Source: Sphingomonas cavernae
GTDB taxonomy: Bacteria; Pseudomonadota; Alphaproteobacteria; Sphingomonadales; Sphingomonadaceae
DNA length: 64,000 nucleotides
Direction of reading: 5' to 3'
Assembly (NCBI RefSeq): GCF_003590775.1
Contig: NZ_QYUM01000003.1
Coordinates: forward strand, 1,118,501 to 1,182,500
The notes under the pieces are model-generated. The model did not search any database. It saw only the letters and a program-made list of their open reading frames with translations, and had not been told where the DNA came from. Positions 5,569 through 62,059 of this stretch are shown here, piece after piece. Position 1 is the first letter of the stretch. Each line of letters opens with the position of its first letter. The position numbers and the translations under genes were made by a program.

Positions 5569-5658
5569 CGTCACCCCAGCGAAAGCTGGGGTCCAGACGA
5601 TGTTTACGCCAGTGCGAGTGACGGGATCGCTTGGATGCCAGCCTTCGCTGGCATGACG
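5569..5658. repeat. paired palindromic intergenic repeat (arm-linker-arm)
   Basis: Two hairpin-forming arms in opposite orientation fill the pepA-holC gap. The left arm (5569-5596) has core CCCCAGCGAAAGCTGGGG. The right arm (5632-5658) has core TGCCAGCCTTCGCTGGCA. The linker is 35 nt. It has the same layout as the elements at 9181, 21632, 22278 and 61881. It could fold in the pepA-holC transcript; no coding function is seen. Confidence 0.8.
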
Positions 5659-6657: not shown

Positions 6658-6738
6658 AGTGCTCCGGGCTTGACCCGGAGCCCATGTCGAAAGCGCTTGT
6701 GCGCCCGGACAAATGGACTCCTGCTTTCGCAGGAGTAC
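6658..6738. repeat. paired palindromic repeat downstream of ndk
   Basis: An 81-bp arm-linker-arm unit. The left arm has core GCTCCGGGCTTGACCCGGAG and the right arm core ACTCCTGCTTTCGCAGGAGT. The left arm has the same GGGCTTGACCC loop as the arms flanking the GIY-YIG gene at 7854, whereas the right arm has the GCTTTCGC loop of the 80-bp elements. It therefore mixes both arm types. Confidence 0.72.
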
Positions 6739-6775
6739 GGGTGCGGATTTAGGGCAGTCGGCTGATCGACTTCAG

Positions 6776-7706: not shown

Positions 7707-7816
7707 CGATCGCATAAGGCGAACGACCGCTTTCTTCGACAAATTGGTCAGTGGAGCGGCGGGCAGTTGATTCCGGACCGTCCGGACACGCCCGCAAAGG
7801 AGATGCTTCCTTTGTC

Positions 7817-7849
7817 GTCACCCCGGGCTTGACCCGGGGTCCCGCTTTT
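7817..7849. repeat. 33-bp inverted repeat, left copy flanking the GIY-YIG gene
   Basis: Perfect 33-bp inverted match to 8168-8200. The arm is itself palindromic (CCCCGGGCTTGACCCGGGG) and can form a hairpin. It ends 4 nt from the stop codon of the GIY-YIG gene, so as transcribed it could act as a terminator for that gene. Confidence 0.9.
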
Positions 7850-7853
7850 TGGG

Positions 7854-8153
7854 TCAGACCAGTAAGGCGAACATATCCTGCCAGTCGGGATTGCCGCGTT
7901 CGATCAGGTCGAACTTCCATTGGCGATGCCAACGCTTGAGACGTTTTTCGTGCGCGATGCAATCGGCGATATCGTTGCCGCGTTCGGCCCAGACGAGCCG
8001 GCTCAGCCCATAGCGTGCGCAAAAGTCCGAACCATCGCCGCTCCGATGCTGGTAAATACGCGCCGCGAGATGCGCCGTGACGCCGACATACATCGTGCCG
8101 CGATAGCGATCGGCCATGATATAGACCCAGCCGCCTTGTCTCGCGCGCTCCAT
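7854..8153 (-). CDS. GIY-YIG nuclease family protein
   Basis: A compact 99-aa single-domain GIY-YIG endonuclease. The signature strands are WVYIMADRYRGTMYVGVT, with VYI and YVG in place of GIY and YIG. They are followed by the conserved Arg in AARIYQHR and the metal-binding Glu in HEKRLKRW. The C-terminal RGNPDWQDMF is typical of this small clade. Such proteins are abundant in alphaproteobacteria but their role is unknown. The gene is bracketed by perfect 33-bp inverted repeats 4 nt and 14 nt away. ATG at 8153 is preceded by an in-frame GTG at 8156; no Shine-Dalgarno sequence is seen. It may be a selfish or repeat-associated nuclease rather than a host gene. Confidence 0.9.
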   Translation of the reverse strand: MERARQGGWVYIMADRYRGTMYVGVTAHLAARIYQHRSGDGSDFCARYGLSRLVWAERGNDIADCIAHEKRLKRWHRQWKFDLIERGNPDWQDMFALLV

Positions 8154-8167
8154 CACCGATGGATGTG

Positions 8168-8200
8168 AAAAGCGGGACCCCGGGTCAAGCCCGGGGTGAC
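8168..8200. repeat. 33-bp inverted repeat, right copy flanking the GIY-YIG gene
   Basis: Exact reverse complement of 7817-7849. Together with the left copy it bounds a 384-bp unit whose only content is the GIY-YIG gene. Confidence 0.9.
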
Positions 8201-8231
8201 GAGGTCGCGAAACGTCCGCTTCCGTCGCGTG

Positions 8232-9167
8232 TCAGAACAACATAGCCAGCTTCTTCGGCGCCACCATCCGCCAGCTTGCGGCCAGCTTTTCCTCGACGCG
8301 CTCCCAGTCGACGTCGTCGCCGTCGAGGCGGATGCCGATCCAGCCCGAGGGGCCGAGATAGGGCGGCTTGTAATAGATATCGGGATCGGCCTCGATCAGC
8401 ATCATCTGCTCCTCGGGGCCGCCGGTTTTCACGAGCACCGAGGTGATGCCGTCGCCATGATGGTCATGGCTGAAATAGGCGAAGAACTTGCCGCCCTCGA
8501 TCAGGAAGCCCGGCGAACCGTGAGAGCTTTTCTCGGTGGTTTTGGGCAGCGCCAGCGCGCGTTCGCGCACTTGATCGAGGAGCCAGTCGGGGCTGGTCTC
8601 GCGGCTCACCAGCTCGGCGAGCACGCGGGGATAGAGCTGATGCTCGGCGATCAGGATACGCGCTGCGAGCGTCTCGGGCGTGTCGCCGGGCAGGATCGCG
8701 ACCTCGGTCTGGCCCAGCACGGGGCCGTCGTCGAGCTCGGCGGTGACGATATGGACCGAGCAGCCGCCGACCGTGTCGCCGGCGTCGAGCGCGCGCTCGT
8801 GCGTGTCGAGACCCTTGTATTTGGGGAGCAGGGAAGGGTGGATATTGACCATCCGCCCCGCCCAGCCATCGACAAACCCGGGCGAGAGCAGGCGCATATA
8901 ACCCGCGAGCGCGACATAGTGCGCGCCAGCCTTCCGTAGCTCGGCGTCGATGATCGCGTCGAATTCCTCGCGCTTCAGCCCCTTGTGGCTCTGCCCGAAA
9001 GTCGCGACGCCCTCGGCCGCGGCAAGCTTGAGCCCCGCCGCATCGGGGTCGTTGGCCGCGACGAGCACGATCTCATAGGGGCAGTCGGACCGCTTCGACG
9101 CATAGAGCAGCGCCGCCATGTTCGACCCGCGTCCGGAAATCAGGACGCCGACCTTCGCCTTGGTCAT
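8232..9167 (-). CDS. purN: phosphoribosylglycinamide formyltransferase PurN with C-terminal MmcQ/YjbR domain
   Basis: Transfers a formyl group from 10-formyl-THF to GAR in de novo purine synthesis. Residues 1 to about 195 are a full PurN domain, with VGVLISGRGSNMAALL, the catalytic region MVNIHPSLLPKYKG and the Asp in ELDDGPVLGQ. Residues about 205-311 are an additional domain resembling MmcQ/YjbR (DUF419) proteins: SHGSPGFLIEGGKFFAYFS, then PPYLGPSGWIGIRLDG and WRMVAPKKLAM. At 311 aa it is about 100 residues longer than standalone PurN. The gene is downstream of purM in the same orientation, separated by an 80-bp repeat, consistent with a purMN operon. The role of the extra domain is unknown. 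Confidence 0.93.
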   Translation of the reverse strand: MTKAKVGVLISGRGSNMAALLYASKRSDCPYEIVLVAANDPDAAGLKLAAAEGVATFGQSHKGLKREEFDAIIDAELRKAGAHYVALAGYMRLLSPGFVDGWAGRMVNIHPSLLPKYKGLDTHERALDAGDTVGGCSVHIVTAELDDGPVLGQTEVAILPGDTPETLAARILIAEHQLYPRVLAELVSRETSPDWLLDQVRERALALPKTTEKSSHGSPGFLIEGGKFFAYFSHDHHGDGITSVLVKTGGPEEQMMLIEADPDIYYKPPYLGPSGWIGIRLDGDDVDWERVEEKLAASWRMVAPKKLAMLF

Positions 9168-9180
9168 GACCGTTGCTCCA

Positions 9181-9260
9181 AGTACCCCGGCGAAAGCCGG
9201 GGTCCAGCATGACGAGCCCGATGCGTGCGACTCCTGGACCCCGGCCTTTGCCGGGGTACT
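9181..9260. repeat. 80-bp paired palindromic element (copy 1)
   Basis: 27-bp left arm (9181-9207, core CCCCGGCGAAAGCCGGGG), 26-nt linker, 27-bp right arm (9234-9260) in inverted orientation with a small mismatch in the loop. It has the same length and spacing as the copies at 21632 and 61881, and its linker is related to theirs when reversed. It lies between purM and purN, so it is probably transcribed within the operon. Confidence 0.88.
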
Positions 9261-9269
9261 TGATGGATG

Positions 9270-14527: not shown

Positions 14528-14689
14528 CCGCTCATCCTGAGGAGCCGTTGAGCCCTTCGACGCCGCTGGCGGAGTCGCTCAGGATAAACTTCGCCCATGG
14601 CGAAGTCGAAACGGCATCTCGAAGGACGGAAGAATTTGGTCCTTCGAGACAAGGCTTCGCCAAGCTCAGCCTTTCCTCAGGATGAGCGG
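14528..14689. repeat. long inverted repeat with CGCTCATCCTGA-type arms (copy 1)
   Basis: A 162-bp element between ppk1 and ppx, bounded by CCGCTCATCCTGAGG (14528) and CCTCAGGATGAGCGG (ending 14689), which are exact reverse complements. Inside are further short inverted blocks (TCGAAGGAC / GTCCTTCGA; TTCGCCCATGGCGAA). The same termini bound a shorter copy at 29211-29312. Confidence 0.82.
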
Positions 14690-14725
14690 TTCCATGTGAG
14701 ACTATACTGGACTAGGGAAGGGCGC

Positions 14726-19892: not shown

Positions 19893-19990
19893 CCGTCATG
19901 CTGAACTTGTTTCAGCATCCATGAACACGGTATCGAACGAATAGGATCAACACCGTGTTCATGGACCCTGAAACGAGTTCAGGGTGACGG
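19893..19990. repeat. inverted repeat with CCATGAACAC inner stem (copy 2)
   Basis: A 98-bp hairpin-capable element between aspS and ppk2, bounded by CCGTCATGCTGAAC and GTTCAGGGTGACGG. The inner stem CCATGAACACGGT / ACCGTGTTCATGG is the same block found inside the 16265-16443 element and, partly, at 22879-23002. Confidence 0.8.
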
Positions 19991-21603: not shown

Positions 21604-21631
21604 ATGCCGGCGCTGCCGGCCAGACGCTCGG

Positions 21632-21711
21632 AGTACCCCGGCGAAAGCCGGGGTCCAGGAGTCACTTGCACCGAGCCCGTCACACTGGACCCCGGCTTTC
21701 GCCGGGGTACT
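21632..21711. repeat. 80-bp paired palindromic element (copy 2)
   Basis: 27-bp arms 21632-21658 and 21685-21711 are perfect reverse complements (core CCCCGGCGAAAGCCGGGG) around a 26-nt linker. This is the cleanest copy of the family. It lies between the ahpC terminator and the ahpD ribosome site, ending 29 nt before the ahpD start. Confidence 0.92.
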
Positions 21712-21740
21712 TCAAATCAGTCTTTCAAGGAGAACACCCC

Positions 21741-22277: not shown

Positions 22278-22372
22278 GTGTCATCCCCGCGAAAGCGGGG
22301 ATCCAAGCGGTGCTTCAGCCATCGCCGCGCTTGCCAGCATTGTATGGATTCCCGCTTTCGCGGGAATGACAC
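22278..22372. repeat. paired palindromic repeat between ahpD and greB
   Basis: A 95-bp arm-linker-arm element: left arm 22278-22305 (GTGTCATCCCCGCGAAAGCG...), right arm 22345-22372 in inverted orientation. It has the GCGAAAGC / GCTTTCGC loop of the 80-bp family but GTGTCAT termini and a 39-nt linker. It lies between convergent genes, so it may terminate both. Confidence 0.85.
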
Positions 22373-22866: not shown

Positions 22867-22878
22867 GAGAGCCTCATA

Positions 22879-23002
22879 CCGTCATGCTGAACTTGTTTCA
22901 GCATCCATGAACACCACCCTTCGAGAATAATCTCCGCGGCTCGCGTTGATGGACCCTGAAACAAGCCTGTCCTGAGCTTGCCGAAGGGTTCAGGGTGACG
23001 GC
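22879..23002. repeat. inverted repeat with CCATGAACAC arm (copy 3, interrupted)
   Basis: Starts CCGTCATGCTGAAC and ends GTTCAGGGTGACGG, like the 19893-19990 element. The right arm contains a roughly 20-nt insertion (CCTGAGCTTGCCGAAGGG region) and the inner stem is degraded. It lies between the slt and greB genes, both on the minus strand. Confidence 0.75.
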
Positions 23003-29210: not shown

Positions 29211-29312
29211 CCGCTCATCCTGAGTAGGGGCTGAGCTTGGCGAAGACCCGTATCGAAGGAGGTCCTTCGAGATGCCATTTCGCCAAGCTCAATGGCTCCT
29301 CAGGATGAGCGG
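29211..29312. repeat. inverted repeat with CGCTCATCCTGA-type arms (copy 2)
   Basis: A 102-bp element between the M13 peptidase and cckA, bounded by CCGCTCATCCTGA and TCAGGATGAGCGG. Inside, GCTGAGCTTGGCGAA and TTCGCCAAGCTCA are reverse-complementary, and TCGAAGGA / TCCTTCGA form the tip. It shares termini and inner blocks with 14528-14689. Confidence 0.82.
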
Positions 29313-29388
29313 TCGTGGTTTGACGCCGCATTTGCCGAACGCCAGTGCTTGACGGCAATCGGAGCGGCGGCGAAGAGGGCAATTGCCC

Positions 29389-36997: not shown

Positions 36998-37019
36998 AGG
37001 TGTCCCCCCTTCATCACTA

Positions 37020-37131
37020 GAGCACTTCCCGAAAAAGTGGGAACCGGTTTTTCGGCCGGGAAGTGCTCAAAATCCTGAATCGAGAGCCTTTCTTGTCCGG
37101 CAAGGCGATTCCGCCTTGCCGGGAAAGGCTC
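37020..37131. repeat. double-hairpin element (copy 1)
   Basis: Hairpin 1 (37020-37068): outer stem GAGCACTTCC / GGAAGTGCTC and inner stem CCGAAAAA / TTTTTCGG. Hairpin 2 (37084-37131): GAGCCTTTC...GGGAAAGGCTC with tip CCGGCAAGGCG / CGCCTTGCCGG. Nearly identical to 44197-44308, with compensated differences. It lies upstream of the symporter gene on the minus strand. No gene is seen in the rest of this 225-bp gap. Confidence 0.9.
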
Positions 37132-44162: not shown

Positions 44163-44196
44163 GCGCCATCATTGCGGCGATGCAGCATGATTTCTA

Positions 44197-44308
44197 GAGC
44201 ACTTCCCGAAAAAGTGGGAACCGGTTTTTCGGCCTGGAAGTGCTCAAGGTATTGGGTTGAGAGCCTTTCTTATCCGGAAAGGCGATTCCGCCTTTCCGGG
44301 AAAGGCTC
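44197..44308. repeat. double-hairpin element (copy 2)
   Basis: Hairpin 1 (44197-44245) and hairpin 2 (44261-44308) match 37020-37131. The tip of hairpin 2 is CCGGAAAGGCG / CGCCTTTCCGG, a compensated C-G to A-T change relative to copy 1. Lies between the two divergent antiporter genes; no other signal was recognised in this 242-bp gap. Confidence 0.9.
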
Positions 44309-61867: not shown

Positions 61868-61880
61868 TGTCCGCACTCGA

Positions 61881-61960
61881 AGTGCTCCGGCGAATGCCGG
61901 AGCCCAGTGTGACAGACCCGGTGCCTGTGACTTCTGGACCCCGGCTTTCGCCGGGGTACT
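61881..61960. repeat. 80-bp paired palindromic element (copy 3)
   Basis: Arms 61881-61907 (core GCTCCGGCGAATGCCGGAGC) and 61934-61960 (core CCCCGGCTTTCGCCGGGG) around a 26-nt linker. It has the same total length and arm spacing as 9181-9260 and 21632-21711. It lies 14 nt after fabZ; the two arms have diverged from each other but each keeps its own palindrome. Confidence 0.88.
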
Positions 61961-62059
61961 CCGATGCTTCCTGCCTTGTAATTCGGCGGCCAACCGTCTA
62001 GAGCGCCGCCTTCGCATCCCCAGGCTGGTCGGAAACCAGCCAAATTCGGAGCATATGAC

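Follow-up and report, generated by a model that had tools for sequence, protein, structure and literature searches.

In the genome of Sphingomonas cavernae (GCF_003590775.1, 4.24 Mb; G000 in the following), a small GIY-YIG nuclease gene lies between two inverted hairpin arms of the CGTC-REP type. We consider it probable that gene and arms form an autonomous mobile element, made of two tag-outward CGTC-REP hairpins and a nuclease specific to that hairpin family, and that this nuclease is the missing CGTC-REP mobiliser. CGTC-REPs are one of the two great bacterial REP superfamilies and their mobiliser has so far been an open question, for which the GIY-YIG nuclease is the best candidate; as a cognate nuclease, picked by its position and by its co-evolution with the arms, it makes the question directly testable. 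On a balance only slightly in favour, such units may also be regarded as a new class of prokaryotic mobile element, hairpin-ended and GIY-YIG-driven (non-HUH, non-DDE and non-recombinase), which generates and maintains the proteobacterial CGTC-REPs, including neisserial dRS3.

The GIY-YIG gene and its arms

The unit was analysed within a stretch of 64,000 nt of contig NZ_QYUM01000003.1, called the window here. The arm on the 3′ side of the gene (7815-7849, forward strand) is a CGTC-tagged palindrome, TCGTCACCCCGGGCTTGACCCGGGGTCCCGCTTTT, and the arm on the 5′ side (8168-8202, reverse strand) is its perfect inverted copy, both having the tag outward. Together they make a perfect 35-bp inverted repeat with a spacing of 318 nt; the sequence-only reading was right about perfect inverted arms around a GIY-YIG gene but had given their length as 33 bp (7817-7849 and 8168-8200). 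Each arm is built as CGTC-ACCCCGGG-CTTGA-CCCGGGGT-CC, and a single arm folds by itself into an 8-bp stem with a 5-nt loop (-10.9 kcal/mol, z -3.2). A pyrimidine-rich tract (7804-7814, forward strand), which is a general feature of such elements, lies directly outside the tag. Exact matches to the arm family, ACCCCGGGCTTGACCCGGGG, were found at only two loci of G000, one in the window and one at C3:1375.4k, where the copy is internally deleted.

The gene (7854-8156, reverse strand) codes for a GIY-YIG endonuclease of 100 aa belonging to the clade that we call B. Its ORF has a GTG start with an in-frame ATG adjoining, and is separated from the arms by 4 nt on one side and 11 nt on the other. The only domain matched is PF01541 (GIY-YIG; 41.2 bits against a cut-off of 22.6), with no Y1 HUH domain, and the AlphaFold model has the GIY-YIG fold (mean pLDDT 93), the nearest solved structures being UPF0213 1zg2 and SLX1. 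From its likeness to SLX1, the protein may prefer branched or hairpin DNA. The catalytic-type residues are conserved, and dN/dS against relatives is 0.06-0.19; the protein is under purifying selection. A search of Rfam gave zero matches and PADLOC matched nothing real, hence there is no sign of a known defence system. It may be noted that the neighbouring gene at 8232-9167 codes for PurN with a YjbR domain fused at its C-terminus, and the match in the genus mate G001 spans the PurN part only. Also, the window holds a 115-nt direct repeat of 90% identity (37017-37131 and 44194-44308).

Short arm-linker-arm loci, supposed earlier to share the design of the unit, do exist in the window, and their tags point outward like those at the gene; their arms, however, come from a number of different families. 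The dimer at 5569-5657 has arms of the families of the G000 GIY-YIG genes L008 and L011, and the same junction is empty in three genus mates; in that at 6658-6739, missing in G004, one arm is of the family of gene L007. Three dimers are of the family of gene L005, at 9176-9262 (missing in three genus mates), 21628-21713 (the closest relative, G003, has an empty site) and 61876-61964, and one at 22278-22372 is of the family of gene L010. All six are tag-outward, as is, without exception, every isolated dimer closely matching the arm of a GIY-YIG gene. Comparison with the few empty sites of short dimers revealed no constant target duplication. At 19893-19990 and 22878-22914 lie repeats of CCGTCATGCTGAACTTGTTTCAGCATCCAT, arm type T3, an orphan REP family; no GIY-YIG gene matching the T3 dimers was found in G000, and one is present in G001 (L054) and in many Erythrobacteraceae.

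Framed genes and REPs within and beyond the source genome

Twelve genes of G000 match PF01541. One of them is UvrC, which has no arms; the small GIY-YIG genes all lie between inverted arms (11 of 11), mostly with a separate palindrome family for each gene. As a control on spacing, inverted-repeat pairs with a score of at least 18 were collected from 464 kb (400 kb elsewhere on the contig plus the window). Only four pairs are spaced 150-450 nt apart, each of them around a small GIY-YIG gene, the other inverted pairs being mostly short dimers. A second clade of small GIY-YIG genes, A, carries the motif RCxDGSYYTGHTDDLE, and its loci in G000 (L001-L004) are framed in 4 of 4 cases by larger palindromes that have no CGTC tag (CCGCTCATCCTGAGGAG..., CTTCGACAGGCTCAG...). 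Dimers of one A-type palindrome family are seen in the window at 14528-14690 and 29211-29313, and A-type genes of other sphingomonads are framed in some cases only.

Most small GIY-YIG genes of the genus mates are likewise framed. At E ≤1e-10, 83 of 299 proteobacterial genomes gave a match to the window-type clade (B; alignment A1), and in a few of these only the other clade is matched. The position of the B-clade gene in foreign loci was set with an HMM, and 57 of 89 loci (64%) were found to have a cognate inverted pair at a score of at least 16, or 64 of 89 (72%) at a score of at least 14. When left and right flanks were taken from different B-clade loci as a mismatch control, the values were 5.5% and 7.9%, respectively. 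About a third of the sampled B-clade genes have no strict inverted pair; in many of the unframed loci, as judged by eye, CGTC palindromes are present but have ceased to match one another. Tagged palindromes pointing outward flank the gene on either side in 41 of 89 B-clade loci as against none of 29 UvrC and YhbQ/YazA-type genes. Armed examples include Neisseria gonorrhoeae (dRS3-type arms), Azospirillum lipoferum (between sufB and sufC), Sinorhizobium meliloti, Novosphingobium aromaticivorans and Sphingobium, and the gene copies of Photobacterium and Rhizobium tumorigenes have no arms. The N. gonorrhoeae gene (L198) lies inside a longer inverted repeat and is a candidate mobiliser of dRS3; its record is labelled as a plasmid, yet is chromosome-sized (2.17 Mb). 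In Rhizobium sp. CIAT894 (L367) and in Shinella (L369 and L370), a GIY-YIG unit is enclosed by another inverted pair, which is larger and of the same REP family.

The expectation that homologues should be flanked consistently by arms of the same family was borne out among the near homologues of the window gene (at least 66% identity, mostly sphingomonads): arms frame 34 of the 36 and are nearly always of the window family; homology of the flanks was found in 48 of the 630 pairs of these loci and is mostly weak. The pairing of gene and arm extends across the deep protein tree. Mapped onto a tree of 109 proteins, arm type changes 15 times against a mean of 55.4 for shuffled types, and none of 200 shuffles was as low. 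Protein and arm distances are correlated (Mantel rho 0.44, p 0.001; earlier set, n=47), and where a genome has several such genes, the closer arm is that of the nearest protein from another genome 16 times out of 22. A cognate nuclease would account for the abundance of small GIY-YIG genes in alphaproteobacteria.

REP copies were counted in the same 299 genomes with the pattern GTCATNCCNGCGNANGCNGGNATCCA, one mismatch allowed. Of the 75 genomes having a B-clade gene, 41 contain at least three copies, as compared to 31 of the 224 that lack it (p 1e-11), and as had been anticipated, the abundance of REPs goes with the gene within families also (odds ratio on stratifying by family 8.5, p 2e-6). 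The reversed control pattern gave zero matches in the 299 genomes. Arms in genomes that had never carried the gene had been named earlier as evidence that would speak against mobilisation by the nuclease, and this is borne out in part, as some genomes have CGTC-REPs and, at present, no small GIY-YIG gene: G188 has 181 CGTC-REP copies with UvrC as its sole GIY-YIG gene, and some other genomes are similar. Therefore, REPs can outlive the gene or exist without it.

Copies of the unit at different loci

The unit is found at different loci of sister species and thus moves. In G003, the sister species closest to S. cavernae, a 93%-identical unit lies at a different place from that of the window, and the purN locus, which is the site of the window unit, does not have it. 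Of the six copies in G003, one is intact and five are internally deleted, while the second copy of G000 has a deletion of 149 nt within the ORF, so that arm-bounded, internally deleted derivatives are present in both genomes. G001 has three copies, two of which, at different loci, are 99.8% identical over 458 nt. The sequence common to copies at different loci extends 12-46 nt beyond the arms, which shows that whole units are copied. The intact copy of G003 (L287, same contig as G003:C16) is on a contig whose label is that of a plasmid, which might serve for transfer; G003 includes a contig of Sphingomonas sp. LaA6.9, a plasmid contig of 21,290 bases.

Across species, the similarity stops at the tag. 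Outside it, the 11-nt tract (positions -2 to -12) is 66% pyrimidine as compared to 43% further out (101 loci), and the opposite end has the mirror of this tract (65% against 46% further out, 101 loci). As regards the empty site and target duplication asked for in the sequence-only reading, the purN locus of G003 is without the unit, and no clean strain-level empty site for the whole gene-bearing unit and no constant duplication was found. Rhizobium and Shinella plasmids compared as strain pairs gave no empty site. The deleted copy at G003:C66 was also tried as an empty site and proved uninformative, because both genomes have different repeats there.

Known systems and competing explanations

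Di Nocera et al. (2013, PMC3733652) described CGTC-REPs, including dRS3 of Neisseria, as apparently having no dedicated transposase; they looked between CGTC repeats for genes of RAYT or other transposases and found none. Tyrosine and other transposases are considered in that paper, and GIY-YIG is absent from its text. The window arms fit their definition (a CGTC/TGTC tag, a stem of 8-9 bp, a loop of 4-5 nt, mostly a CC(A) tail, and tag-outward, i.e. head-to-head, dimers), except that the window stem starts with AC instead of the usual AT. What differs from the repeats as described is the cognate GIY-YIG gene between the arms, also in N. gonorrhoeae, S. meliloti and A. lipoferum. No paper linking GIY-YIG with REPs was found among the open-access papers searched.

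The likeness to REP/RAYT systems (REPtron, TnpA-REP) proposed earlier is supported by the framed homologues, the mobility, the deleted copies and the association of REPs with the gene. In both systems a nuclease gene is flanked by inverted short palindromes, the repeats are mostly dimers and clades of the gene are matched to types of repeat; also, the repeats flanking the gene are of types spread in the genome, though the window's own family has few dispersed copies. Unlike RAYT, the enzyme here is GIY-YIG and not Y1 HUH (IS200/IS605-like), and the tag is CGTC and not GTAG. Both of these features, which define a REPtron, were looked for and are absent; the unit resembles a REPtron in the way it works without being one. 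A cognate nuclease of the CGTC-REPs would suggest that selfish hairpin repeats have recruited a mobiliser twice, from unrelated nuclease folds. The UPF0213/YhbQ-YazA proteins are of comparable size and have the closest solved fold (1zg2), but the YhbQ-type genes examined have no arms and the B clade has an extra LIExxNPxWxDL motif.

We infer that the GIY-YIG protein is a dedicated mobiliser of CGTC-REPs and a functional analogue of RAYT with an unrelated fold. It would recognise its cognate arms as hairpins, formed either at the fork in single-stranded DNA or by extrusion of a cruciform, and would nick them at the tag or close to it. The DNA lying between two arms with outward tags might then be set free or copied, and its joining into intergenic DNA might take place at pyrimidine/purine tracts. 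Short dimers would arise through deletion of the interior, and the same protein could move these in trans.

Some observations count against such a dedicated mobiliser, namely the REP-rich genomes of the G188 type, the third of sampled B-clade genes without a strict inverted pair, the T3 dimers of G000, for which no matching gene was found there, and the lack of a clean empty site and of a constant duplication; also, no joining activity is known for a GIY-YIG nuclease alone. Of the other explanations, the independent landing of palindromes beside a resident gene, where they are kept as bidirectional terminators, is hardly credible. The palindromes are intergenic and could act in termination, but no other gene in the 464 kb is bracketed at a spacing of 150-450 nt, the arm pairs are cognate and their copies lie at different loci; this alternative of the sequence-only reading is refuted by the spacing control, the mismatch-pairing control and the arm-tree statistics. 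It is quite unlikely that another enzyme (a RAYT, another transposase or replication slippage) mobilises the unit in trans, with the GIY-YIG protein as a cargo that resolves or polices the cruciforms of repeats, for example. Such an arrangement would fit the persistence of REPs in genomes without the gene, the resolution of branched DNA by GIY-YIG folds near SLX1, and the purifying selection, which is like that of a host gene; yet an arm type that tracks the GIY-YIG tree is not expected from a trans mobiliser, and no transposase gene flanked by CGTC repeats was found in the survey cited above (PMC3733652).

The strongest rival is that the gene is of the homing type: it would cut and invade the linkers of existing REP dimers, doing no more than targeting the arms cognate to it, and the dimers would be spread by another enzyme. 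GIY-YIG proteins are known classically as homing endonucleases, free-standing or intron-encoded; these share with the unit the catalytic domain and probably a selfish spread by the cutting of DNA. Homing would likewise produce cognate pairing of arm and gene. It is kept alive by the alternation of unit and dimer between relatives, as the intergenic slot between mdh and sucD holds a gene-bearing unit in G000 and G048 and short dimers in genus mates, and that between sucB and lpd a unit in G000 and a dimer in G003. We consider homing unlikely, however, since it is weakened by the finding that no gene-free dimers of the window family occur among the copies read: both loci of G000 and the six copies of G003 carry gene sequence. 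The copying of whole units, with sequence outside the arms, also argues against it, and the dimers of the genus mates at mdh-sucD are from other arm families than the unit of G000. Moreover, unlike homing genes, the gene here is bounded by its own hairpin arms with no intron, and has non-coding, arm-bounded derivatives and unrelated insertion loci. As regards the slots themselves (L182 for both mdh-sucD and sucB-lpd; L192-L197), the place taken by a GIY-YIG unit in two genera is occupied by short dimers of other families in genus mates, a pattern that looks as if slots are reused or units decay to dimers in place.
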